DNA from: Granulicella sp. 5B5
GTDB lineage: Bacteria > Acidobacteriota > Terriglobia > Terriglobales > Acidobacteriaceae
Assembly (NCBI RefSeq): GCF_014083945.1
Contig: NZ_CP046444.1
Span: 3,224,001-3,288,000 of the forward strand
Length of the DNA: 64,000 bases
Direction: 5' to 3'
The position numbers and the translations under genes were made by a program. Shown here piece after piece: positions 3,969 through 37,091 of the stretch; the stretch's first letter is position 1, and every line of letters starts with the position of its first letter. The notes beneath the pieces are model-generated. The model saw only the letters and a list, made by a program, of their open reading frames with translations, was not told the DNA's origin and searched no databases.

Positions 3969-4643
3969 AGAAAATCAAGCAGTTAGTTTGAAAATCTGAA
4001 TCGCGGATGAGCTGAACAAGCCCTGTGAGTCAGAAATGGGTCCAAAGTGGCCTTGCCACCTCCAACACAAGCAGCGCGACGCCTTCCTGGCCTTCCTTTC
4101 AGGTTAGGCGGGGTACCGTTATTTCAGAAATGACGCCAAGGTGCGCGACCAGTTTCAAAGCATTCTGGATTTTCAAAAACCACGGTCAACGAAGTGGCTG
4201 ATCTCGTTTTGGCAAGACCTTAGAGATGCCAATCCTGCAGCGATCCCGCCACCAGCTTGTAGAAAGATGGCAACGGCTGCAGTGAGCATCTATCTTCCGC
4301 TGAAGATGGATGTAGTTATCTGCGCCAGTAGTCACTACAAGAAAACAATACGAAGCAAGAGCATCCGATGTGCCAACCGCACCCGGCCTTATCCGCTTCA
4401 TTTGCCATCGAATGCTCTCTCGGTTGAAGTTGTCAATGATTGACGATATCGAGAATGAATTAGCTTTTGTGGAAATCCTAACCGCTAACTGAGGCAACCC
4501 GCACCAACACAACGTGGGGCTGCTTTACAAATGCTGCTACCTGCGCGTGAGAGCGTGACATGGTCGTGGTTATACTGTGAGAAGCGATTCGCAACTAGCG
4601 TCCTTTTACCGTTATCGCTCGTCTGTTCTTCTATAGATAAGCC
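3969..4643. other. gene-poor, lower-GC stretch downstream of tRNA-Ala
   Basis: About 675 nt with no convincing gene. Base composition is visibly less GC-rich than in the neighbouring genes. The short open frames here have no ribosome site and no recognisable motif. A position just 3' of a tRNA is a classic integration site, but I see no integrase and no repeated copy of the tRNA 3' end in the window. Confidence 0.5.
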
Positions 4644-21408: not shown

Positions 21409-21450
21409 GCTTCTTTCTCTAGGCACGTCACGTCCGTTCGACAGCCTGTT

Positions 21451-21570
21451 CTCGAACTACCCATGAAGCGTCATCTCGAACTACCCATAAAATGTCATCT
21501 CGAACTACCCATAAAATGTCATCTTGAACTACCCATGAAGTGTCATCTTGAACTACCCATAAAATGTCAT
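21451..21570. repeat. five tandem 24-bp repeats
   Basis: Contiguous units start at 21451, 21475, 21499, 21523 and 21547. Each reads CTCGAACTACCCAT plus AAAATGTCAT or GAAGYGTCAT, with only a few base changes. No spacers. The last unit runs directly into a dispersed hairpin repeat whose first bases (GTCATCTCGA) match the unit junction, so the array probably grew by slippage from the edge of that element. Confidence 0.9.
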
Positions 21571-21620
21571 CTCGACCGGAGCCAAACAGCTTCATCGTTT
21601 GGCGCAGTGGAGAGACCTGC
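21565..21620 (+). repeat. dispersed hairpin repeat, copy A
   Basis: Framework TCATCTCGACCGGA, hairpin GCCAAAC-(9 nt)-GTTTGGC, then GTGGAGAGACCTG. Same framework as copies at 21780, 22359 and 47587 but with a different stem sequence that is still fully paired. Confidence 0.75.
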
Positions 21621-21832: not shown

Positions 21833-21985
21833 TTATCGCTGCCAAGCAAAGCAAGCGCACCACGTCGAACTGCCGCTCGATGCCCTACCGAAAAATCACA
21901 ATCTGCGGGCCTCCTCATATTTTTCAATATGCAATTTATTTCACTTAAGATATTGTGGTCATTTGTAGAGGAAAGCAGGTATTCG

Positions 21986-22339
21986 TTGCAGCGTTACGCG
22001 CAGATCATTCGTCTCCGTCCTGAAGATGAAGCGGAGTACGTCCGCTACCACGCCGAGGTCTGGCCCACCGTCCTCCAGACCATCGCCGACTGCAACATCC
22101 GCAACTACTCCATCTTCCTCCGCGGCGACATGCTCTTCGCCTACTTCGAGTACCACGGCACAGACTACGCCGCCGACATGCGCCGCATGGCCGCCGACCC
22201 TGAAACCCAGCGCTGGTGGAAGATCATGGACCCCATGCAACTCCCCGTCATAGACGCCGCCCCCGGCGACCATTGGACCCAGCTCCACGAAGTCTTCCAC
22301 TTCGACGGCCACCCGTCGCCTGATAGCTGCCGCAGATAA
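21986..22339 (+). CDS. rhaM: L-rhamnose mutarotase
   Basis: Interconverts alpha- and beta-L-rhamnose to feed the isomerase. The 117-aa product matches the small dimeric mutarotase: LRPEDEAEYVRYHAEVWPTVLQ with the catalytic-type His, then YSIFLRGDMLFAYFEYHG and the trailing RWWKIMDPMQ. The TTG at 21986 is taken as the start because it directly precedes the conserved QRYAQIIRL and has a weak AGG upstream; the open frame extends further back into repeat DNA. It sits outside the main rhamnose block, separated by the convergent lut genes and flanked by repeats. Confidence 0.88.
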   Translation: MQRYAQIIRLRPEDEAEYVRYHAEVWPTVLQTIADCNIRNYSIFLRGDMLFAYFEYHGTDYAADMRRMAADPETQRWWKIMDPMQLPVIDAAPGDHWTQLHEVFHFDGHPSPDSCRR

Positions 22340-22758: not shown

Positions 22759-23397
22759 TCACTCGCCATAAAGCACAACGCTAAGCCGCCGCGGCCCATG
22801 CACGCCACGAATCCGCGTCATCTCAATATCCGACGTCGCCGAAGGCCCAGAGATCGTCGTCATCGCCATCCGCCTGCTGGAACTGATCGCCGCCAGCGCC
22901 TCCGGTACGGTCTCCACCACCTGCTGCCGCGCCAGCACGCAGATATGATGGTCCGGCAGCAGCGTAACCGCCCGCCGCCCCTGCGCGCCTTCATGCACCA
23001 GGATGATCGTCCCTGTCGCCGCGACAGCCGCCTCGCACGTCGTCAACACGGTACCCAACCCATCCAGCTGCTCCGTCGCCAGCGCGGCATCGACCACAAC
23101 CTCAGCGGCGCTCGGAAGCCAGTTCTTCGGAAACGCCTCGGCAACCAGCACGCTATGCTCACCGGCACGCCGCAGCGCCTCCTCAACAGCGCCGCCAATC
23201 TCCGCCTCGCTGCCAACCTCAAGGATCTCGGAGTCGTAGTCCAGCAACCGGTCCTTCAGCAGATGCAGGCAAGCCTCGCGGTCAAGCGAGCCCTTGCGTT
23301 GATACTCGCGACCTATCTGGTCATACGCAACACGGTCTGGCGCACCGCCAACCGCGGCACGAATGCGCCCCAGGATCACCTCGCGTGCGTCGCTCAT
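22759..23397 (-). CDS. lutC: lactate utilisation protein LutC
   Basis: 212-aa member of the LutC/YkgG (DUF162) family, one of three subunits of the iron-sulfur L-lactate oxidation complex in the cytoplasm. Recognised by the central EAFPKNWLPSAAE, then TVLTTCEAAVAATGTIIL and the C-terminal SATSDIEMTRIRGVHGP. The start overlaps the lutB stop as ATGA, which favours coupled translation. Last gene of the lutABC run. Confidence 0.87.
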   Translation of the reverse strand: MSDAREVILGRIRAAVGGAPDRVAYDQIGREYQRKGSLDREACLHLLKDRLLDYDSEILEVGSEAEIGGAVEEALRRAGEHSVLVAEAFPKNWLPSAAEVVVDAALATEQLDGLGTVLTTCEAAVAATGTIILVHEGAQGRRAVTLLPDHHICVLARQQVVETVPEALAAISSSRRMAMTTISGPSATSDIEMTRIRGVHGPRRLSVVLYGE

Positions 23398-24851
23398 GCG
23401 CTTGCTCCCTTGCTGCGGCTCTTCCACCAGTCGCGGAAGCTCTGCTTCGGGATGGCCTTCAGGTCGCGATACTTAGTCCAGCCCCCCGCCATGCCAGGCA
23501 GGTTCTCCAACTGATCACCCTTCCGGAACAGCATCTGCCCAGCCTGTGCCAGCCGCTGCGCCGCCTCATACCGCCGCTGGCTCTGGAACGCCGCAGCCGC
23601 ACCCTGCATGGCCAGGTTCTCCACCGCCAGCTTGCCGCCCAGCGTCGCCTGGTCCTCGCGCACCACGCGCCCGCGCAGGTGAATCAGGATCTCCGGAATA
23701 TTGATCTTCACCGGGCAGACCTCATAGCAAGCGCCACACAGCGTCGACGCATACGGCAGGGAACGCGAGTGCTCCAGCGACTGCAGCTGCGGCGACAGGA
23801 TCGCCCCAATCGGTCCCGAGTAGATCGATCCATACGCATGCCCACCCGTCTCGCGGTACACCGGGCAAGCGTTCAAACAAGCGCCGCACCGGATGCACTC
23901 CAGCGTCTCGCGTTCCATCTCGTCATGCAGTAGCTTCGTGCGCCCGTTGTCCAGCAGGATCACATGGAACGCCTTCGGCCCATCACCCGCATGCACACCG
24001 CACCACAGCGAGTTGTACGGATTCATCCGCTCCCCCGTCGCCGACCGCGGCAGCAGCTGCAGAAACACTTCAAGGTCCTCGAACCGCGGGATTACCTTCT
24101 CGACGCCGATCAGCGAGATCAACACATCCGGCATCGTCAGGCACATCCGCCCATTGCCCTCGGACTCGACGACACACACACCACCCGTCTCCGCAATCGC
24201 AAAGTTCGCGCCGCTTACACCGATCTTCACCTTCAGGAACCGCTCCCGCAGATACGCCCGCGCTGCCCCGGTCAGATCCTCCGGCTCGGCCGTCAACTCC
24301 GGCCGATGCATCGTCTCGCGGAACAGATCACGCACCTCAAACCGGTTGCGATGTAGCGCCGGAACCACAATGTGCGAGGGCTCATCGTGGCCCATCTGCA
24401 CAATCATATCGGCCAGGTCTGTCTCAATCGGAGTGATGCCCGCGGCCTCCAGCGCCACGTTCATCTGCACCTCATCCGAGGTCATCGTCTTCACCTTGAT
24501 GACCTCGACATGAGAGTTGCCCTCCGAGTATTGCCTAATCAGCCCAATAGCAATCGCATTGGCCTCATCCGCATCGCGGGCCCAGTGCACCTTGCCGCCA
24601 GCCAGCTCGCAGTTCTTCTCAAACTCAACCAGGTACTCGTCGAGATGCCGCAGTGTATGCGCCTTGATCGCACTAGCCGTATCGCGCAGCTGCTGCCAGT
24701 CCGGCATCTCCTCCACGCGCAGAGCACGCTTGCCGCGAATCGTATCCGTCGCGCGGCGCACATTGGCGCGAAGCTGATCGTTCTTCAGCGCGGTCTTCGC
24801 CGCAACCGGAAACGCCGCGGCTCTGTCTGTCTTGCCAACGCGAACGCTCAT
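23394..24851 (-). CDS. lutB: lactate utilisation iron-sulfur protein LutB
   Basis: 485-aa iron-sulfur subunit of the LutABC L-lactate oxidation system. The N-terminal DUF162-type half (GVSGANFAIAETGGVCVVESEGN) is followed by two ferredoxin-like clusters: CIRCGACLNACPVYR (near residue 320) and CGACYEVCPVKINIP (near residue 372), then a C-terminal tail typical of LutB. Start ATG overlaps the lutA stop by ATGA. Here it would oxidise lactate made by the RhaD fusion. Confidence 0.9.
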   Translation of the reverse strand: MSVRVGKTDRAAAFPVAAKTALKNDQLRANVRRATDTIRGKRALRVEEMPDWQQLRDTASAIKAHTLRHLDEYLVEFEKNCELAGGKVHWARDADEANAIAIGLIRQYSEGNSHVEVIKVKTMTSDEVQMNVALEAAGITPIETDLADMIVQMGHDEPSHIVVPALHRNRFEVRDLFRETMHRPELTAEPEDLTGAARAYLRERFLKVKIGVSGANFAIAETGGVCVVESEGNGRMCLTMPDVLISLIGVEKVIPRFEDLEVFLQLLPRSATGERMNPYNSLWCGVHAGDGPKAFHVILLDNGRTKLLHDEMERETLECIRCGACLNACPVYRETGGHAYGSIYSGPIGAILSPQLQSLEHSRSLPYASTLCGACYEVCPVKINIPEILIHLRGRVVREDQATLGGKLAVENLAMQGAAAAFQSQRRYEAAQRLAQAGQMLFRKGDQLENLPGMAGGWTKYRDLKAIPKQSFRDWWKSRSKGASA

Positions 24852-25585
24852 AGCGCAGCTCCCTCGCTCGCAAGAATCTCCGCGATATGCATCGTCCGCA
24901 CAGCCGAGCCTGCGCGATGCAGCCCGCCATAGATCTGCATCAGGCAGCTATTGTCGAGCGCGGTCACAACCTCAGCCCCAGTCTCCACCACGCAGCCCTG
25001 CTTCTCAGCCAGCATCGCCACTGAGACATCGGCGTTCTTCACCGCAAACGTCCCACCGAACCCGCAGCACTGCTCCTTCTTCGGCAACTCCAGCAGCGTC
25101 AACCCGCGCACCTGCCGCAGTAGCCGCACCGGCGCATCGCCCACATGCAGCATCCGCAGCGAGTGGCACGACGGATGGTAGGTCACACTATGCGCAAACG
25201 TCGCGCCCACATCCTCCGTCTGGAGCCGGTTCGCGAGCAGCTCGCTGAACTCAAACACGCGTGGCAGCAGGCTCTTCACATCGGCAAGAAACGCGCTGTC
25301 GTTCTCCGCCTCAGCCATCATTAGATAGTGCTCACGCATCATCGCTACGCAACTGGCAGAAGGCACGCAAACCACTTCGGCATCCCGAAACATCTCCACG
25401 AATCTCCGTACCAGCGGCACAGCTTCGCGATGATAGCCCGTGTTGTAGTGCATCTGCCCGCAACAGGTCTGCGCCAGCGGAAACTCCACCGTATGCCCCA
25501 GCCGCTCCAGCACGCGTGTCACCGCAACACCTGTCTCGGGAAACAGAGTGTCGTTATAGCAGGCTACGAACAGCGAGATGCGCAA
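24848..25585 (-). CDS. lutA: lactate utilisation Cys-rich protein LutA
   Basis: 245-aa Cys-rich-domain protein of the LutABC L-lactate oxidation system. Two CCG-type motifs (TCCGQMHYNTGY and EQCCGFGGTFAVK) are the hallmark. The TTG at 25585 is preferred: it is 4-5 nt after AAAGGAAG and gives the family N-terminus RISLFVACYNDTLFPETG. The frame upstream to 25633 is not conserved. First gene of lutABC, 85 nt downstream of rhaT on the same strand. Confidence 0.88.
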   Translation of the reverse strand: MRISLFVACYNDTLFPETGVAVTRVLERLGHTVEFPLAQTCCGQMHYNTGYHREAVPLVRRFVEMFRDAEVVCVPSASCVAMMREHYLMMAEAENDSAFLADVKSLLPRVFEFSELLANRLQTEDVGATFAHSVTYHPSCHSLRMLHVGDAPVRLLRQVRGLTLLELPKKEQCCGFGGTFAVKNADVSVAMLAEKQGCVVETGAEVVTALDNSCLMQIYGGLHRAGSAVRTMHIAEILASEGAAL

Positions 25586-25670
25586 GGGGCTTCCTTTCAC
25601 CGGGCAATGGCCAAATCGCGTGGCCTTCATCAATTTTACCTATGGAAGAAGAAAGTCACGAGTGAACCAC

Positions 25671-26828
25671 TCAGTGGACCTTCAGATAACTCCCATAGCC
25701 GACCACCACAGTAGATCCGATCAGCAGTGCAAGTCCGCAGCCGACCAACGCTCGCGTCCTCAGGCTCGTTCCGCGCCACTCCTTCAGCGCAATGCCCCAC
25801 AGGTTCGCGAAGATGATGATGCTTGCCATGTGCAGCGTCCAGCTGGCGAAGTCGTACTTGCCCATCTTCGTCTGCCCCATCGAGTAGAAGAAGAACTGGA
25901 AGTACCAGATGATTCCGGCCAGCGCCGCGAACAGGTAGTTCTTGGTCAGCACCTTCCCGCTGATGCGCCCAATATAGTCGCGCGGATTGAAGTCCACCAG
26001 GGTATCGCCCGTCACCGGGGCCGTCCCCATCGGATTATCGCCCGGCGCTCCGCCAAACTGTGCGAACGAGTGGTTCTTCACAATCAGTACCGCAGACCAC
26101 ACGAAGTTCGTAACGAACCCGCCCCACAGCACAACGATCAGCACCGGCAGATTGGACCATAGGTCCCTCCGGCCACCTGCCACCAGGTGTACTCGCGTGA
26201 TGTCTCCGATGGGCTTGCCCGCAGCCAGGCCAAACGCAAAGAACGAGCTCATAATGCCCGCGAACACCGCGACCGCAAGGCCTTTGATGAAAGAGAAGTC
26301 GCGTTCGCCGGCGATCGCCTTCTCCTCCTCGGTCACCTCATGTTCCTTGGAGTAGCCCGCCGCTCCGCTGACCCCGATCGCCAACAGGCACATAAAGACG
26401 CCGACCAGAATCACCTGTCCCGAACGCTCGTTCAAAATGCTGTGCATCTGCCCGTAGTAAATCGGTGGGATCAATGTCCCAAACGCCGTGCAGAAGCCCA
26501 GCGCAATCGCGTATCCCAGTCCCAGTCCCAGATAGCGGATCGCCAGTCCAAACGTCAGTCCGCCGACGCCCCACAGTATCCCCATGAGCATCGGCCAGAA
26601 GAGGCTGGCATCCGGCGAGCGATGCGCTTCTCCGAGAATCTTGAAGACATGCGGCACAAAGATGCTCGCAATCAGCGTTGGAGCGATCAGCCACGCGGCC
26701 ACGCCTTGGATGATCCAGTAAATCTCCCACGACCATCGCTTGATGCCGCGAAACGGAATAAAGTTGCTGGCAGAGGCGAGTCCGCCCAGCCAGTGATAGA
26801 TGACGCCGATAAACGGATTAGGTCCCAC
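25671..26828 (-). CDS. rhaT: L-rhamnose-proton symporter
   Basis: Inner-membrane importer of L-rhamnose, 385 aa with about ten predicted helices. The N-terminus (LASASNFIPFRGIKRWSWEIYWI) and the segment ILWGVGGLTFGLAIRYLG are characteristic of RhaT. GTG start with GAGG 6 nt upstream. Divergent from rhaI and upstream of lutABC, so uptake and lactate oxidation may be one transcript. A GGA-N7-TCC palindrome lies upstream. Confidence 0.92.
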   Translation of the reverse strand: MGPNPFIGVIYHWLGGLASASNFIPFRGIKRWSWEIYWIIQGVAAWLIAPTLIASIFVPHVFKILGEAHRSPDASLFWPMLMGILWGVGGLTFGLAIRYLGLGLGYAIALGFCTAFGTLIPPIYYGQMHSILNERSGQVILVGVFMCLLAIGVSGAAGYSKEHEVTEEEKAIAGERDFSFIKGLAVAVFAGIMSSFFAFGLAAGKPIGDITRVHLVAGGRRDLWSNLPVLIVVLWGGFVTNFVWSAVLIVKNHSFAQFGGAPGDNPMGTAPVTGDTLVDFNPRDYIGRISGKVLTKNYLFAALAGIIWYFQFFFYSMGQTKMGKYDFASWTLHMASIIIFANLWGIALKEWRGTSLRTRALVGCGLALLIGSTVVVGYGSYLKVH

Positions 26829-26931: not shown

Positions 26932-26950
26932 TTTGGAAATAATATCCCTA
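26932..26950. promoter_or_regulatory. candidate rhamnose operator 1 (rhaT-rhaI gap)
   Basis: TTTGGA-AATAATA-TCCCTA: half-sites GGA and TCC around a 7-nt A/T centre, the same layout as at 29770-29788 before rhaD. It lies in the 266-nt divergent region. Confidence 0.45.
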
Positions 26951-27094
26951 TTGGACGTCCACCGCCGAACCCGTATGGACAGCTTTCTAGCTGCTCATTG
27001 TTTTCCTCACTTGCGCAGGAAAGTTTCAATACATAGTATAAGTCCTCTATGAAACTTCGCGGCCGCCGCGCCGCTCCGGTTCGAGGTGCTCTTC

Positions 27095-28300
27095 ATGTCG
27101 ACTAATTCCATCTCCAACGCTGCGCAATCCCGCATTCACAAAGCCCTCGACGCCTTCGCCATTGAGATCCCCTCCTGGGGATTTGCCAATACAGGCACGC
27201 GCTTCGGCAAGTTTTCACAGCCTGCCGCCGCTACCAACCTTGAAGAGAAGTTTGCCGACGCGGGTGAGGTCAATCGCCTCACCGGCGTCACTCCCACGCT
27301 GGCACTGCATGTCCTTTGGGATATGCCAAATGGTGTTGCGGATGCTGAGAAGATTCAATCGCTTGCCAAGCAGTATGGCGTCCGTGCAGGCTCGATCAAT
27401 CCCAATCTCTTTCAGGAACCCGAGTACAAGTTCGGCTCCATCTGCAATCCCTCCGCTGAGGTCCGCAAGAAAGCCACGCAGCACCTGCTTGACTCGGTCG
27501 CCATCGGCAAGGCCGTCGGCTCTGCCGAGGTCTCCGTCTGGGTCGCCGACGGCTCCAACTACCCCGGCACGCAGAGCATCTCGCGCCGCATCGGCTGGAT
27601 GAAGGAGGCCTTCGCCGCCGCCCATGAGGCCCTCGCTCCCGGCCAGACTCTGCTCATCGAATACAAGCCCTTTGAGCCTGCTTTTTATCACACGGATATC
27701 GCCGACTGGGGCATGTCCCTTGAGCTCTGTCGAGCTGCTGGCCCCCAGGCCCGCGTGCTGGTCGATACCGGCCATCACTATCAGGGCACCAACATCGAAC
27801 AGATCGTCTCGTGGCTTATTGCGCTCGATGTCCTCGGTGGCTTCCACTTCAACGATCGCAAGTACGCCGATGATGACCTGACGCTCGGGTCCATCGACCC
27901 CTATCAGGTCTTCCGTATCTTCCATGAGATCCACGCCGCGCAAGAGAGCAACAGTGCCTTCACCGCTCCGGCCTACATGATCGATCAGAGCCACAACCTC
28001 AAGGGCAAGATGGAGGCGATGATCCAGACCGTCGTGACGGCGCAGGAACTCTACGCCCGAGCCGCCCTCGTCGATCAGGCTGAGCTCGCCGTTCTGCAGG
28101 ACAGTTGCCAGCTCGTTGCAGCTGAGGAACTCTTTCGTGGCGCTTTCTGGACTGACGTTCGGCCCATTGTGCAGCAGTGGCGTGAGCAGCGCGGTCTGCC
28201 TGTCGATCCCCTTGCCGCTCTCAGGTCCAGCGGTTACGTCGAACAGATAGCAGCGGCCCGTGCGGCAAAAAACTCTGTAGGCCAGAGTTCCTACGCCTGA
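27095..28300 (+). CDS. rhaI: L-rhamnose isomerase (RhaI type)
   Basis: Converts L-rhamnose to L-rhamnulose. The 401-aa TIM-barrel protein matches the Pseudomonas-type isomerase rather than E. coli RhaA: IEIPSWGFANTGTRFGKF near the start, IEYKPFEPAFYHTD, DTGHHYQGTNIEQIV and FHFNDRKYADDDL, which supply the metal-binding Glu, Asp and His. ATG 27095 is chosen (GAGG 8 nt upstream) over GTG 27086. First + strand gene of the rhamnose block. Confidence 0.92.
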   Translation: MSTNSISNAAQSRIHKALDAFAIEIPSWGFANTGTRFGKFSQPAAATNLEEKFADAGEVNRLTGVTPTLALHVLWDMPNGVADAEKIQSLAKQYGVRAGSINPNLFQEPEYKFGSICNPSAEVRKKATQHLLDSVAIGKAVGSAEVSVWVADGSNYPGTQSISRRIGWMKEAFAAAHEALAPGQTLLIEYKPFEPAFYHTDIADWGMSLELCRAAGPQARVLVDTGHHYQGTNIEQIVSWLIALDVLGGFHFNDRKYADDDLTLGSIDPYQVFRIFHEIHAAQESNSAFTAPAYMIDQSHNLKGKMEAMIQTVVTAQELYARAALVDQAELAVLQDSCQLVAAEELFRGAFWTDVRPIVQQWREQRGLPVDPLAALRSSGYVEQIAAARAAKNSVGQSSYA

Positions 28301-28503
28301 GCCTCCAATAGTCGAAAATAATTGTCTGCCTATGCTGTTCGCTCATCGCGAAAGCTGCTCATCTGTAGGCGCTTGCACTTCCTCAATGGTATGCTTCCTC
28401 CAGTAGGAATCCATTAGGGAAACGCCGCCTGAGTGTTGCGTTGGTCCAGGTTTGTTAGCCAGCCACATCCACTCCGCCCGTCGTTGCTCGCGATGAGGGA
28501 AAC

Positions 28504-29724
28504 ATGCCCGGAAAGACAAAGGCCCGCCGCCTTTACCTGATCCCTGTCCTGACCAAGGCGCTCGACATCCTTGAGCTGCTGCAGACGGAAAATCAGCCCA
28601 TGGTCCTCGAGAGCATCCATAAGCGGACCCGCATCTCCAAGACCACCGTCTATCGCATCCTCAAGACGTTGGTCCACCGCGGCTATGTGGGGCAGGGGGC
28701 TGACCGCCAGTATCGCCACATCGCTCGCCCGCGCAAGCTCCGCTTTGGCTTTGGCGGTCAAAGCGCGGAGATGCCGTTCTCCGAGGCCATGACCGCCAGT
28801 CTGCGCCAGGCTGCTGCTGCTGTCGGTGTCGATCTCGTCGTCCTCGATAACCACTACGACCCGCAGGTGGCTATCGAGAACGCCGAGACCTTCATCCGCG
28901 AGCGTGTCGACGTCATCATCGAGTTCCAGGTCGACGAGCACATCGCCCCCATCATCGCCGACAAGATCGCCGAAGCCGGCATCCCGCTCATCGCCGTTGA
29001 CATCCCCCATCCCCGCGCCACGTTCATCGGCGTCGACAACTATCGCGCGGGCCTCGAAGCCGGCGGCCTGCTCGCCGACTACTCCCTCAACTACTGGGAG
29101 GGCAAGATGGACTGGATGGTCGGGCTAGACATCGAAGAGGCCGGCCAGCTCGTCCAGAGTCGTATCACCGGCGCCTTCCAGGGCGTCAAGGCGCGTCTGC
29201 CGAACCTCCCTGTCGAGTCCTTCGTCCGCATCGACGGCCGCGGCATGCGCGACAAGAGTTACAAAGTCATCCTCGACTTCCTCAACCGTCATCCTAAGGA
29301 TAAGCACATCCTCGTTGCAGCTGCCAACGACACCAGCGCGATGGGCGCCATCGCCGCTGTCCGCGAGCTGGGCCGTGAAAAGCACGTCGCCGTCGTCGGC
29401 CAGGATTGCGTCGAGGAGATGCTCCGTGAGATGCAGCGATCGAACAGTCCCGCCATCGGTTCCATCTCGCATGAGGTTCAGCTTTACGGCCCACGCCTCA
29501 TCGACCTCGGCCTCTCGCTGCTGCGTAGTGAGACCGTTCCGCCTTACAACTACGTCGAGCACCGCGCCGTCACGCCGGACCTCGCCTCGCGCGCGCTGGA
29601 GGCTCTCTTGCTGTCACCTTCTCACTTTTCCTCGTCGGCTTCATCGGAAGCGCCACCCCGCGCCGCGCCTCCAAAGAAGCGCGCGAGCGGAAAGAAATCA
29701 ACACAAAGGGCCTTGGCACGCTAG
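28504..29724 (+). CDS. IclR-type HTH fused to a sugar-binding (RbsB/LacI-like) domain: rhamnose regulator
   Basis: Predicted transcription factor of 406 aa with an unusual architecture. Residues ~14-62 form an IclR-type winged helix (VLTKALDILELLQTE, RTRISKTTVYRILKTLVHRGYV). Residues ~95-375 are a periplasmic-binding-protein type sugar domain (AIENAETFIRERVDVIIEF, ADKIAEAGIPLIAVDIPHP, VAAANDTSAMGAIAAVREL, VVGQDCVEEMLREM). The C-terminus is a low-complexity Ser/Ala/Lys tail. No signal peptide, so it acts in the cytoplasm. GAGGG lies 5 nt before ATG. Its place between rhaI and rhaD suggests that it senses rhamnose or a pathway intermediate. Confidence 0.8.
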   Translation: MPGKTKARRLYLIPVLTKALDILELLQTENQPMVLESIHKRTRISKTTVYRILKTLVHRGYVGQGADRQYRHIARPRKLRFGFGGQSAEMPFSEAMTASLRQAAAAVGVDLVVLDNHYDPQVAIENAETFIRERVDVIIEFQVDEHIAPIIADKIAEAGIPLIAVDIPHPRATFIGVDNYRAGLEAGGLLADYSLNYWEGKMDWMVGLDIEEAGQLVQSRITGAFQGVKARLPNLPVESFVRIDGRGMRDKSYKVILDFLNRHPKDKHILVAAANDTSAMGAIAAVRELGREKHVAVVGQDCVEEMLREMQRSNSPAIGSISHEVQLYGPRLIDLGLSLLRSETVPPYNYVEHRAVTPDLASRALEALLLSPSHFSSSASSEAPPRAAPPKKRASGKKSTQRALAR

Positions 29725-29769: not shown

Positions 29770-29797
29770 ATAGGAATAGTTGTCCTATTGGTATAAT
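29770..29797 (+). promoter_or_regulatory. candidate operator and -10 before rhaD
   Basis: Palindrome ATAGGA-ATAGTTG-TCCTAT (29770-29788) directly followed by a consensus TATAAT (29792-29797), 72 nt before the ATG. A protein bound here would cover the -35 region, fitting repression. Confidence 0.55.
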
Positions 29798-29868
29798 GTG
29801 TGGGATCATCAATACGCCGCCGACGACCCGTCGAGGACGAACCCACAGGAAACCACACAGGCATCTCT

Positions 29869-32073
29869 ATGACTACCGCTAGCAAGCTCCGCTTCCTCGA
29901 AGACCGCTGGGATGAGGCCGTTGCCTCCAAGCTCGACGCCCCCGAACTCCTCCGCTATCGCTCCAACCTGCTCGGTTCCGATCTCCGCCTCACCAACTTC
30001 GGTGGCGGCAACACCAGCTCCAAGATCGACGAAGTCGACCCCCTCGACGGCCAGACGAAGAAGGTTCTCTGGGTCAAGGGCTCTGGCGGCGATCTCGGCA
30101 GCATCAAGCGCTCCGGCTTCGCCACGCTCTATCTCGATAAGGTCCTCGCCCTCGCAAACAGTTATCAGGGTGTAGCCCGTGAAGACGAGATCGTCTCGAT
30201 GTATCCGCTCTGCACCTTCGGCAACAACCCCGTCGCAGCGTCCATCGACACGCCACTCCACGGCTTCCTCCCGTTCCCGCACGTCGACCACCTCCACCCC
30301 GACTGGGGCATCGCTCTCGCGGCCTCGGCCAACGGCAAGCAAAAAATGGAGGAGTTCAATCAGCAGTTCGGCCACAAGATCGTCTGGGTCCCCTGGCAGC
30401 GCCCCGGCTTCGAGCTCGCACTGATGCTGCGCGATGCCGTCGCCGCGGTCCCTGGCTGCGACGGCGTCGTCCTCGGCGGCCACGGCCTCTTCACATGGGG
30501 CAACACGCAGCGCGAAAGCTACCTCAACACCATCACGATCATTGACCAGATCGGTCAGTTCATCGCGCAGCACGCGGAGAAGAAGTCCACGAGCTTCGGC
30601 GGCGCAAAGCACGCTTCGCACGACGACCGCCAGGCCCTCGCCACGAAGATCATGCCCGTCATCCGTGGCCGAGTCTCCGCAAAGCAGCGCGTCATCGGCA
30701 GCTTCACGGATGCCCCTGACGTCCTTGCCTTCGTGAACTCGCACTCAGCGGAAAAGCTCGCGCACCTCGGCACCAGCTGCCCCGACCACTTCATCCGCAC
30801 CAAGATCCGCCCGCTCTTCGTCAACTGGGACCCCAAGACTGATCCAGCAGGCATCGAGCCTCTGATCGACCAGGCCCTCGAAACCTACCGCGCCGAGTAC
30901 GCCGACTACTACAAGGCCCACGCCCTGCCCGACTCGCCCGCCATGCGCGACGCCAGCCCCACCGTCGTCCTCATCCCCGGCATCGGCATGTTCAGCTTCG
31001 GCAAGAACAAAACCGAGTCCCGCATCACCGGCGAGTTCTACACCAACGCCATCCACGTCATGGAAGGCGCCGGCCACATGGACGAGGATAACTGTCCCGC
31101 GGTGCTTCCGCAGGCTGGTCCTGCCGCAAAGACTGAAGCCTTCACAACGCACCAGAACTACGTCGCACTCCCACCCAGCGAAGCCTTCCGCATCGAGTAC
31201 TGGGCACTTGAAGAGGCGAAGATTCGCCGCCAGCCGCCCGAGAAGGAGCTCTCCCGCCGCATCGCTCTCATCGTCGGCGGAGCCAGCGGCATCGGCCGCG
31301 AGACCGCTCTACTCGCCACCGAGCGCGGCGCGCACATCGTCGTCGCCGACCTTTCGCTCGAAGCCGCACAGAAGGTCGCCGATGAGTGCAAGGCCATCGG
31401 TGGCAAGGAGTGCGCGATCGCCACGGTCATCGACATCCGCAAGCGCGACGCGATCAAGCAGGCGCTCAACGCCACCATCGCAGCCTTCGGCGGCGTAGAC
31501 CTCCTCATTAACACCGCAGCCATCTTCCCGTCTTCGCCCGACGGCATCATCACCGATGCGCAGTGGGGCATCACGCTGGAGATCAACGTCACCGCCAACT
31601 ACCTGCTCACTGACGAAGCCTCATCCGTCTTCAAGGCGCAGGGAATCTCCGGCAGCGTCGTCCTCACCAGCTCTGCCAACGCCGTCGTCGCCAAACGTGG
31701 CAGCGAGGCGTATGACGTCTCCAAGGCCGCGCTCTCGCACCTCGTCCGCGAGCTCGCCGTCACCTACTCGCCTCTGCTGCGCGTCAACGGCATCAGCCCG
31801 GCTACAGTCGTCAAGGGTTCCACCATGTTCCCGCGCGACCGCGTCAAGGCCTCTCTGACGAAGTACAACATCGCCTTCGAGGAGTCTGCGAGCGACGATG
31901 AACTCCGCAACCTCCTCGCGAAGTTCTACGCCAAACGCACCCTCACGCACGTCCCCATCGACCCCAAAGACTGTGCCGAAGCGATCCTCTTCATCGGTGG
32001 CCCCAAGGCACCCGTCACCACCGGCCACCTCGTCCCGGTCGACGGCGGCCTCGTCGAAGCCTACCTCCGCTAA
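29869..32073 (+). CDS. rhaD: bifunctional rhamnulose-1-phosphate aldolase / lactaldehyde dehydrogenase (SDR)
   Basis: Fusion enzyme of 734 aa. Residues ~1-430 are a class II aldolase domain (LTNFGGGNTSSKI, HVDHLHPDWG, LGGHGLFTWG) that splits L-rhamnulose 1-phosphate into dihydroxyacetone phosphate and L-lactaldehyde. Residues ~462-734 are a short-chain dehydrogenase (NAD motif GGASGIGRE, NTAAIF, YDVSKAA) that would oxidise lactaldehyde to lactate. ATG 29869 is preferred to an upstream in-frame start because it lies past the promoter. Lactate would then be taken up by the nearby LutABC. A good terminator follows. Confidence 0.92.
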   Translation: MTTASKLRFLEDRWDEAVASKLDAPELLRYRSNLLGSDLRLTNFGGGNTSSKIDEVDPLDGQTKKVLWVKGSGGDLGSIKRSGFATLYLDKVLALANSYQGVAREDEIVSMYPLCTFGNNPVAASIDTPLHGFLPFPHVDHLHPDWGIALAASANGKQKMEEFNQQFGHKIVWVPWQRPGFELALMLRDAVAAVPGCDGVVLGGHGLFTWGNTQRESYLNTITIIDQIGQFIAQHAEKKSTSFGGAKHASHDDRQALATKIMPVIRGRVSAKQRVIGSFTDAPDVLAFVNSHSAEKLAHLGTSCPDHFIRTKIRPLFVNWDPKTDPAGIEPLIDQALETYRAEYADYYKAHALPDSPAMRDASPTVVLIPGIGMFSFGKNKTESRITGEFYTNAIHVMEGAGHMDEDNCPAVLPQAGPAAKTEAFTTHQNYVALPPSEAFRIEYWALEEAKIRRQPPEKELSRRIALIVGGASGIGRETALLATERGAHIVVADLSLEAAQKVADECKAIGGKECAIATVIDIRKRDAIKQALNATIAAFGGVDLLINTAAIFPSSPDGIITDAQWGITLEINVTANYLLTDEASSVFKAQGISGSVVLTSSANAVVAKRGSEAYDVSKAALSHLVRELAVTYSPLLRVNGISPATVVKGSTMFPRDRVKASLTKYNIAFEESASDDELRNLLAKFYAKRTLTHVPIDPKDCAEAILFIGGPKAPVTTGHLVPVDGGLVEAYLR

Positions 32074-32436: not shown

Positions 32437-33873
32437 ATGATGAGCGCCACTGCACCCCAACCCATCGACCTCCGAGCCCTAGTCGCCATCGACTTAGGCG
32501 CCGAATCCTGCCGCGTCTCCCTCCTCCGCTGGAAGAACAGCGAGCCGCATATCGAGCTCGTTCACCGCTTCCCCAACGGCGCCACAGAAACCGCCGACGG
32601 CCTCCACTGGAACCTCGAAGGCATCCTTACCGGTCTCGACGAAGGCCTCCGCAAATGCGCAACCATCGCCACCGAAGGGATCCGCTCCATTGCAGTCGAC
32701 GGATGGGGCGTCGACTACGTCCGCCTCGACAGCAATGGTAAGCCCGTATCTGAACCCTTCTGCTACCGCGACGAGCGCACCGTCACTGCCGAAGAGTCCC
32801 TCAACGACCGCATCAGCCCGCAGCGCATGCGTGAGCTCACCGGCATCGGCCTCCTGCGCATCAACACGGCCTACCAGCTCTTCGCAGACGATGCGAGCGT
32901 CCGTTCGCTCCCCTGGCTCAACCTGCCCGAGTACATCCTCTACTCCCTCGGCGCGCGTCCCGTCTCCGAACGCACTCTCGCCAGCCACACCCAGATCCTC
33001 AGCATGCCCACCGAGCAATCGCCTGGCGAGTGGTGCGACGAGATCGTTCACGAGCTCGACATCCCCGCATCGGCAATGCCTGAGCTGGTGAACCCCGGCA
33101 CCGATGTCGGCCCGCTCACCGGCCCGCTCGCCGCTCTACCGGCCTTCCAAAACACCCGCCTGATCGCACCCTGCTGCCACGACACAGCCTCCGCCATCGC
33201 CGCCATCCCCGACGCCGCCGACGACTGGGCCTACATCAGCTCCGGCACCTGGTCGCTCGTCGGCACGCTGCTCCCGCAGCCCAACAACTCCCAGCGCGCC
33301 CGCGATGAGAACTTCACTAACCTCATCGGCGCCGATGGCACCATCTGCTTCCACAAGAACGTCAATGGCATGTGGCTCCTCCGCCAGTGCATGGAGACCT
33401 GGACCGCCGAAGGCGCGCATCTTGAGATCACCGAGCTCGTCGAGGCCGCCAGCAAGGCTCCTGTGCCCACCTATACGCTCGACGTTGACGACCCTGATTT
33501 GCTCCTCAGTGGTCGCATGCCGCAGCGCATCAATGCGCAGCTCCACCGTCGCAACCTGCCCGAGCTCAGCACTCATCCCAACGACGCCCCCGCAATGGCC
33601 GCCTTCCTCTTCCACTCCCTTGCCGCGCGCTACGCGCAGGTGCTCGCCAGCGTGGCAGCCATCACCGGCAAACCGCTGCGTCGCATCCACATCATGGGCG
33701 GCGGTAGTCAGAACGCCTTCCTCAACCGCCTGACTGAACAAGCGACCGGCCTCGAAGTCCACCGGGTGGGTACCGAGTGCTCCACCGTCGGCAACTTCGC
33801 CGTCCAGCTAGCCACCCTCGAACAAACCCCTGGCCCACGTCCCTCAGCTCATTGGGCCAGCCGCCTCGCATAA
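32437..33873 (+). CDS. rhaB: rhamnulokinase
   Basis: Phosphorylates L-rhamnulose to L-rhamnulose 1-phosphate with ATP. The 478-aa FGGY-type kinase shows the N-terminal phosphate loop VAIDLGAESCRVSLLRW, the sugar site GWGVDYVRLD, the second ATP motif SSGTWSLVGT and the adenine motif IMGGGSQNAFLNRL. Two ATGs stand in tandem at 32437 and 32440. It is separated from rhaD by a terminator and repeats. It completes the rhamnose pathway in the window. Confidence 0.93.
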   Translation: MMSATAPQPIDLRALVAIDLGAESCRVSLLRWKNSEPHIELVHRFPNGATETADGLHWNLEGILTGLDEGLRKCATIATEGIRSIAVDGWGVDYVRLDSNGKPVSEPFCYRDERTVTAEESLNDRISPQRMRELTGIGLLRINTAYQLFADDASVRSLPWLNLPEYILYSLGARPVSERTLASHTQILSMPTEQSPGEWCDEIVHELDIPASAMPELVNPGTDVGPLTGPLAALPAFQNTRLIAPCCHDTASAIAAIPDAADDWAYISSGTWSLVGTLLPQPNNSQRARDENFTNLIGADGTICFHKNVNGMWLLRQCMETWTAEGAHLEITELVEAASKAPVPTYTLDVDDPDLLLSGRMPQRINAQLHRRNLPELSTHPNDAPAMAAFLFHSLAARYAQVLASVAAITGKPLRRIHIMGGGSQNAFLNRLTEQATGLEVHRVGTECSTVGNFAVQLATLEQTPGPRPSAHWASRLA

Positions 33874-35618: not shown

Positions 35619-35678
35619 TGTAAGGAGAACTTTGATACGCTGCTGCGGTAAGCTTGTGACGAAAGTGGAGAAAGTTTG

Positions 35679-37091
35679 ATGTTGAACGGAAATCGGTTGT
35701 TCCCCGCAGAGAGTGCAGCGCGCGCAGTCGCTGTGAAGCTATACGACATCGTTCGCGACCTCCCCATCATCAGCCCACACGGTCACACTGACCCGCAGTG
35801 GTTCGCTGACAACAAGCCGTTCCCAAATCCTACGGCGCTGTTTCTGCAGCCGGATCACTATGTCTTCCGGATGCTGTACTCGCAGGGCGTGAGCCTGGAG
35901 TCGTTGGGAGTGCCGCAGCAGGGAGCGTACCCGGATCCGAACCCGGCGCTGGTGGACCCGCGTGAGGCGTGGCGTATCTTCGCTAGGCACTATTATCTGT
36001 TTCGCGGTACTCCGACGCGGTTGTGGCTCGACTATGCCTTTGAGAACCAGTTTGGCCTGAAGGAGCGGCTGAGCGAGCACAATGCCGACGAGTACTACGA
36101 GACGATCGACAAGGAGTTGCAGACGCCGGAGTTTCTGCCGCGGACTCTCTTTGAAAAGTTCAATATCGAGGTCCTCTCGACGACAGATACTGCGATCGAT
36201 ACGTTGGAGCAGCACGAGAAGATCAAGGCGTCGGGGTGGACGGGGCGTGTGCTGCCGACGTTCCGTCCGGATTCGGTGGTAGATGCGGAGTACATCGGGT
36301 TCCATGACAACATCCGGAAGTTGGGTGAGCTGACCAATGAGGATGTCTCCAGTTGGAAGGGGTATCTGGATGCGCTGCGTAACCGGCGGAAGTACTTCAT
36401 TGAGCATGGCGCGACGGCGACGGACCATGGGCACCTGACTGCGATGACAGCGGATCTGCCGTTCAATGAGGCTGCGGCGTTGTATGAGCGCATCTACACG
36501 GGCAAGACGCGTCCTGGTGACATCGAGCTGTTCCAGGCGCAGATGCTTACCGAGCTTGCGGGCATGAGCGTGGAAGATGGGCTGACGATGCAGCTGCATC
36601 CAGGGTCGATCCGGAACCACAACCAGAAGGTGTATGAGAAGTTCGGGCGCGATAAGGGAGCGGACATTCCTTCGCCTACCGAGTATGTGCGTTCGCTGCG
36701 GCCGCTGCTGAACAAGTATGGCAATGAGCCCAACTTCATCTTCATTCTGTTCACGCTGGATGAGTCGACGTTCTCGCGGGAGCTGGCGCCGCTGGCGGGG
36801 CACTACCCCTGCCTGAGGCTGGGGCCGCCGTGGTGGTTCCATGACTCGCCGGAGGGGATGATGCGGTTCCGGGAGACGGCGACGGAGACGGCTGGGTTCT
36901 ACAACACGGTCGGGTTCAACGACGATACGCGGGCGTTCCTGTCCATCCCGGCGCGGCATGATGTGGCGCGTCGTGTCGACTGTGCGTTCCTGGGACGGCT
37001 GGTTGCGGAGCACCGGCTGGATGAGGATGAGGCGGTCGAACTGGCGCATGACCTGACGGTTGGATTGGTGCGGAAGGCGTACAAGCTGTAA
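35679..37091 (+). CDS. uxaC: glucuronate/galacturonate isomerase
   Basis: Converts D-glucuronate to D-fructuronate and D-galacturonate to D-tagaturonate. The 470-aa protein shows the N-terminal metal-type motif ISPHGHTDPQWFADN, SLESLGVP, the central TDTAIDTLEQH and the late WWFHDSPEGM. ATG 35679 with GGAG 8 nt upstream (a TTG codon precedes it). First gene of the uronate group and the first + strand gene past the base-skew switch. Closed by a large hairpin. Confidence 0.93.
   Translation: MLNGNRLFPAESAARAVAVKLYDIVRDLPIISPHGHTDPQWFADNKPFPNPTALFLQPDHYVFRMLYSQGVSLESLGVPQQGAYPDPNPALVDPREAWRIFARHYYLFRGTPTRLWLDYAFENQFGLKERLSEHNADEYYETIDKELQTPEFLPRTLFEKFNIEVLSTTDTAIDTLEQHEKIKASGWTGRVLPTFRPDSVVDAEYIGFHDNIRKLGELTNEDVSSWKGYLDALRNRRKYFIEHGATATDHGHLTAMTADLPFNEAAALYERIYTGKTRPGDIELFQAQMLTELAGMSVEDGLTMQLHPGSIRNHNQKVYEKFGRDKGADIPSPTEYVRSLRPLLNKYGNEPNFIFILFTLDESTFSRELAPLAGHYPCLRLGPPWWFHDSPEGMMRFRETATETAGFYNTVGFNDDTRAFLSIPARHDVARRVDCAFLGRLVAEHRLDEDEAVELAHDLTVGLVRKAYKL

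Follow-up and report, generated by a model that had tools for sequence, protein, structure and literature searches.

An open reading frame of Granulicella sp. 5B5 joins an IclR-type winged helix to a sugar-binding domain of the kind found in ABC transporters. The encoded 406-residue protein (28504..29724, plus strand, ATG start; all positions refer to the window, the whole 64,000-nucleotide stretch of DNA that was analyzed) is with a probability of roughly 0.8 a cytosolic one-component regulator of L-rhamnose use and the reader of a three-box operator. The analysis established the domain architecture, the conserved neighbourhood and the motif, and the mechanism proposed from them would run as follows. 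The IclR winged helix would read TTTC-N6-GAAA-N3-TTTC before rhaT-lutABC/rhaI, rhaEW-rhaK and rhaM, and probably also a site before the regulator's own gene, while the C-terminal SBP-type domain would bind the sugar imported by RhaT, most likely L-rhamnose itself. Closing of the sugar domain would alter the set of the DNA-binding domains, and the enzymes leading from rhamnose through rhamnulose and rhamnulose-1-phosphate to DHAP and L-lactaldehyde, and onward through lactate to pyruvate, would be made when needed.

Domain architecture and predicted structure

The N-terminal part of the protein matched HTH_IclR (PF09339) at residues 16-64 (28549..28695, plus strand; E 3.4e-14, 52.8 bits against a Pfam cut-off of 22), and the corresponding helices are present in the AlphaFold (AF2) monomer model (mean pLDDT 88, pTM 0.75). 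Most of the remainder is an RbsB/YtfQ-like periplasmic-binding-protein (PBP) fold at residues ~78-370 (28735..29613, plus strand), as assigned by Pfam, Foldseek and VIA superposition. The Pfam profile Peripla_BP_4 matched residues 86-328 (E 4.6e-28, 98.9 bits) and Peripla_BP_1 scored 44.5 bits, while the LacI-type Peripla_BP_3 reached 21.9 bits only, under its cut-off. These matches bear out the preliminary description of an IclR winged helix and a PBP-type sugar domain in one ORF, whose borders had been placed nearly right (14-62 and 95-375, compared to 16-64 and 86-328 in Pfam and 12-72 and ~78-370 in the model). The sensor had been called RbsB-like, which stands, with the added specification that it belongs with the SBPs of ABC transporters (RbsB/YtfQ type) and not with the LacI type.

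In the model, the winged domain (residues 12-72) comprises three helices (12-29, 35-42 and 46-59) followed by a wing (62-72), and is joined to the PBP fold (~78 to 370) by a short linker without a long helix. Canonical IclR proteins are expected to have a long linker helix. The PBP part matched ribose-binding protein 2ioy with a Foldseek E value of 8.5e-19 and a TM(target) of 0.90, and superposition with VIA gave a Z of 34.5 and an rmsd of 1.7 over 271. The protein begins with the helix-turn-helix and has no signal peptide, and its C-terminal tail (374-406) is modelled with low confidence and missing in many relatives. Since PBP-type sensors in regulators are usually linked to LacI domains, the protein could in principle be a regular LacI-type regulator whose DNA-binding domain merely scores poorly. 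This is very improbable given the HTH_IclR score, the preference of the sensor for Peripla_BP_4 over Peripla_BP_3, and a predicted fold that has a winged helix resembling that of IclR and lacks a hinge helix like that of LacI; in addition, no LacI HTH profile occurred among the Pfam hits shown for the fusion protein or for 36 relatives. The Pfam profiles thus leave residues 14-62 with IclR, as first described.

The IclR C-terminal effector domain (PF01614) was not among the Pfam hits shown for the fusion protein (E<=1), and the 23 families to which at least one of the 36 relatives matched (E<=0.001) do not include it either. Because this domain is missing and residues 78-370 form a PBP fold, the protein is not filed as a full member of the IclR family; it is a carrier of the IclR DNA-binding domain only. 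All NCBIfam matches were remote and far below their cut-offs, the best being to PcaR/PcaU/PobR regulators and RbsB, and the protein is therefore without a named NCBIfam family.

Compared to known systems, the protein has the N-terminal winged helix in common with the IclR family (E. coli IclR, KdgR, PcaU/PobR, RhcR), but a periplasmic-binding-protein domain of 280 residues replaces the effector domain. Haloarchaeal RhcR, an IclR-type activator of rhamnose catabolism, is an archaeal example of rhamnose control by this family, and the study on it describes IclR-like regulators of Bacteria and haloarchaea as typically two-domain proteins with an IclR effector domain (PMC11519228). As in the LacI/GalR family, a PBP-fold sugar sensor follows the DNA-binding domain, but there is no LacI HTH or hinge helix and the sensor is nearer to transporter SBPs (Peripla_BP_4). 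The sensor is alike in fold and sequence to CUT2 binding proteins (RbsB, YtfQ and an Acidisoma SBP beside rhmD); unlike these, the fusion protein lacks a signal peptide, carries a DNA-binding domain and has no adjoining ABC transporter genes. The components, an IclR DNA-binding domain and a PBP sensor, were already known, and their combination appears to be new. The fusion is unnamed in Pfam and NCBIfam, and no paper on it was found in the literature available outside subscription. However, a survey counted 80 domains that accompany the IclR DNA-binding domain (PMC5882156), and its lists may thus include the fusion without comment.

The rhamnose gene cluster and its predicted operators

The regulator gene lies amid rhamnose genes, as had been noted; these are rhaT, lutABC, rhaI, rhaEW, rhaK and rhaM, the last of which the preliminary description does not mention. 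On the plus strand, it is preceded by rhaI, encoding L-rhamnose isomerase (27086..28300; TIGR02635 E 1.4e-144, somewhat under cut-off), and followed by rhaEW, encoding a bifunctional rhamnulose-1-phosphate aldolase/short-chain dehydrogenase (29800..32073; NF006189 E 5.7e-298, over cut-off), and the rhamnulokinase gene rhaK (32437..33873; TIGR02627 E 2.9e-89, under cut-off but the best match). The minus strand carries rhaT-lutA-lutB-lutC, pointing away from rhaI: the L-rhamnose/proton symporter gene rhaT (25671..26828; PF06379 E 7.9e-56; NF010024 E 8e-134, just under its cut-off), a lutA-like gene for a CCG-domain protein of lactate oxidation (24848..25633; PF02754 E 2.1e-31), lutB for an L-lactate oxidation iron-sulfur protein (23394..24851; TIGR00273 E 1.9e-135, over cut-off), and a lutC-like gene for a LUD-domain protein (22759..23427; PF02589 E 1.3e-22). 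The L-rhamnose mutarotase gene rhaM (21986..22339, plus strand) has a proposed TTG start and matches PF05336 (E 6.1e-33) and, under its cut-off, TIGR02625 (E 1.7e-14). Together, the RhaT, RhaI, RhaK, RhaEW and Lut families provide a route from L-rhamnose to pyruvate. No Rfam families were found in the cluster. Upstream of rhaM, positions 21450-21575 hold 5.2 copies of a 24-base tandem unit, TCTCGAACTACCCATAAAATGTCA, and the gap between rhaEW and rhaK contains three REP-like GGCTTYAGCC palindromes (32262, 32301 and 32369).

EM searches upstream of rhaI, of rhaT and of the regulator gene independently recovered related motifs, and the joint consensus,.atTtCAATAGaGAAA.taTTTC., consists of three boxes of alternating direction (TTTC-N6-GAAA-N3-TTTC). 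When promoters were held out, 12 of 22 for rhaI, 12 of 15 for rhaT (these two were held out together, since the intergenic region is common to both in some loci) and 19 of 26 for rhaEW exceeded the 99% level of shuffles. None did for rhaK (0/24) or lutB (0/16), both of which are mostly operon-internal, and 4 of 13 did for lutA, which in some loci is the first gene of a divergent unit. The promoter of the regulator gene itself passed in 6/26 cases, a weak test because the site there takes a two-box form, TTTCATTAGCGAAA, which is conserved upstream of regulator orthologues in many loci. Two earlier candidates were discarded: GGA-N7-TCC, the first motif, noticed on visual inspection of the window, showed no conservation, and the first EM motif before rhaEW proved to be the end of the regulator's coding sequence, which led to the shortening of upstream regions to 170 bases.

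The final model was built from 47 regions of 20 distant loci, with the window and its close relatives left out and rhaM unused in training. Its four best sites in the 64-kb window fall at rhaT/rhaI, rhaEW, rhaM and rhaI and score 18.3-25.8 bits, compared to a maximum of 17.2 in 20 shuffled windows, with a mild leak in that the initial EM seed was a consensus that had included the window. The best predicted operator, CAATAGGGATATTATTTCC (26935..26958, minus strand; 25.8 bits), lies between rhaT-lutABC and rhaI, followed in score by those before rhaEW(-rhaK) (29772..29795, minus strand; 22.5 bits), before rhaM (21920..21943, plus strand; 20.7 bits), 43 bases ahead of the proposed start, and before rhaI (27022..27045, plus strand; 18.3 bits). 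A candidate autoregulatory site of the two-box form, ATCCATTAGGGAAAC (28407..28430, plus strand), scored 14.5 bits with the full model, which includes the window. Genome-wide, sites of this pattern also occur near genes for GH35, GH3 and an MFS protein and near a small ORF that looks broken; however, matches outside the cluster are hardly commoner than those of a control pattern, and a wider regulon is therefore not claimed. Locus L184 has a similar site of 20.7 bits ~60 bases before a GH35 gene, and L187 has a rhamnose-type site of 18.8 bits (about 4045-4073) before a broken-looking small ORF upstream of a GH3 gene.

The predicted operator is probably bound by the fusion regulator. It is possible that the motif belongs to another regulator and that the fusion protein controls something else, its neighbourhood being coincidental, as shared inheritance of the cluster could by itself produce the co-localisation. 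This alternative is considered improbable on several grounds. The motif has the shape of an IclR-family site: GAAA-N3-TTTC also forms the centre of the box TGGAAATNATTTCCA of E. coli IclR, and the box order resembles known three-box sites of the family, which are on record for PcaU and for 32 orthologous groups of IclR regulators (PMC8222616). Regulators of this family bind as dimers or tetramers, to A/T-rich operators that are palindromic or three-box and often stand in tandem. The two-box form stands before the regulator's own gene in many loci, and no other IclR gene of the genome is located within the 64-kb window. In addition, a sister clade of the family that adjoins uxuA is accompanied in the surrounding DNA by another motif, GTTTCACAATGCAAAAC, which is close to the IclR group-1 consensus.

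Distribution and clades of the fusion family

Full-length matches to the fusion protein were present in 47 of 396 sampled Acidobacteriota genomes, representing 15 of 209 genera, and some of the sampled genomes contained two to four copies. Both domains were found in all 36 aligned relatives, and the distances between proteins in the two domains correlate (r 0.91 over 83 proteins, reached in 0/500 permutations), as expected if the domains travelled together. Rare fusions can be artefacts, but it is hardly conceivable that two genes were joined here only locally or by the assembly: the domain distances are correlated, and the same architecture is present in 36/36 relatives and, in separate assemblies, in 15 genera, so that the fusion is not a product of chance. 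The preliminary suggestion of a distinct regulator class in acidobacteria is fair if "class" is taken to mean a domain architecture that has a phylogeny of its own and recurs in the Acidobacteriota. The species-wide scan returned records named as Acidobacteria or their genera only; it used a one-genome-per-species collection seeded with query peptides, which find close relatives only, and more distant fusions in other phyla may have escaped it. Plasmids and phages yielded only transport or partial matches and no fusion among the places looked at, and no fusion was found in viral contigs.

Loci from the species collection are recorded under Granulicella, Edaphobacter, Paracidobacterium, Candidatus Acidiferrum and unnamed Acidobacteria, most of them with the same rhamnose genes, and orthologues adjoin rhaI, rhaEW, rhaK, rhaT and lutAB in most loci. 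In the genus of the source strain, relatives occurred in 20 of 28 genomes; 19 genomes contained both the regulator and rhaEW, 7 contained neither and 2 were discordant, one of which has a contig ending inside rhaEW. The hypergeometric probability of this co-occurrence, computed by hand with kinship ignored, is about 5e-5. Some genomes of the order and class carry rhaEW without the fusion regulator, which is thus not universal.

The IclR-PBP family consists of several clades beside different sugar pathways, defined from the tree plus neighbour-gene families; placement is unsure for tree rows with long branches (L132, L147, L148 and others). The sugar names given to clades other than the rhamnose clade are putative labels read from the neighbouring genes. 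Members of the rhamnose clade neighbour rhamnose genes. The hexuronate (uxuA) clade, of which 8 rows are set apart by a branch with an SH-aLRT of 98, neighbours uxuA, SDR, SMP-30, GH92 and TonB-receptor-like proteins, the last labelled from sequence without a profile match. The isoapionate clade is found beside oiaK, oiaX, GH127 and a rhamnosidase-like protein, and includes a paralogue from the same genome (L034:7271-8686) beside a Bac_rhamnosid6H protein. An isomerase clade (L133, L141, L144, L155, L166) adjoins an Arabinose_Iso_C protein, a rhaM-like mutarotase and a GH39-like protein, and a deeper group comes mostly from other classes of the phylum, with several rows (L110, L117, L118, L122, L139) again in rhamnose clusters. 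Motif searches in the isoapionate, isomerase and deep clades were only weak compared to shuffles. In the window, a glucuronate isomerase gene, uxaC (35676-37091), adjoins the rhamnose cluster; in other genomes it is the sister IclR-PBP clade that adjoins uxuA. Six loci (L130, L135, L138, L142, L143 and L145) have matches, under cut-offs, to oiaK (3-oxo-isoapionate kinase) and oiaX (RuBisCO-like decarboxylase), and the paralogues adjacent to them may possibly point to apiose use in Acidobacteriota.

One potential explanation for this distribution, to which even chances are given, is that a single early joining of IclR and SBP domains founded a family peculiar to the Acidobacteriota. The family would have spread by duplication, with one copy per plant-sugar pathway (rhamnose, hexuronate, isoapionate and others), each having its own operator and pocket and standing in LacI's place.

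Ligand, sign of control and significance

The nearest non-regulator relatives found for the sensor are secreted SBPs of ABC operons with ~30% identity, of which one from Acidisoma lies beside the L-rhamnonate dehydratase gene (rhmD) and others, in Rhizobium, beside an arabinose-isomerase-like gene. These relatives indicate the capture of a transporter-type binding protein and suggest a free deoxysugar or pentose-like ligand, and L-rhamnose would be the simplest choice in a rhamnose cluster. Alternatively, the protein may be a rha regulator that responds to L-rhamnulose, rhamnulose-1-phosphate, L-lactaldehyde or a rhamnose-containing oligosaccharide. A cytosolic regulator meets all pathway intermediates, phosphorylated intermediates are effectors of many sugar regulators, and the clade-specific sensor residues at ~322-326 (SHE in the rhamnose clade, AYFPE in others) should be near the pocket. 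However, free sugars are the normal ligands of SBP-type domains, the closest relatives found in transport belong to deoxysugar or pentose operons, and a predicted site precedes rhaM, whose enzyme acts on free rhamnose; an intermediate or an oligosaccharide as ligand is therefore considered clearly less likely than L-rhamnose.

Regulators of the IclR type can repress or activate. A search of the cluster for a sigma-70-like promoter to position the predicted sites found none; on visual inspection, several of these sites overlap hexamers resembling TATAAT, as repression would lead one to expect. There is a slight lean towards repression lifted by the sugar, with activation, as by PcaU or RhcR, nearly as likely.

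The bacterial rhamnose regulators listed in a 2013 study are of the AraC, DeoR and LacI types, with LacI-type RhaR, RhmR and RhiR belonging to rhamnose regulons, and they control rha operons of content similar to that described here; IclR regulators and Acidobacteria are both absent from the main text of that study (Rodionova et al. 2013, PMC3870299). The fusion would add a further non-orthologous type to the regulators of bacterial rhamnose use, and it illustrates how a class of one-component regulators can arise when a widespread DNA-binding module is fused to the binding protein of a transporter. Many different sugars are bound by SBP domains, and the architecture may for this reason lend itself to the engineering of sugar biosensors as a template provided by nature. 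For the Acidobacteriota, abundant soil bacteria whose regulation has been little studied, the family offers sugar-by-sugar predictions.
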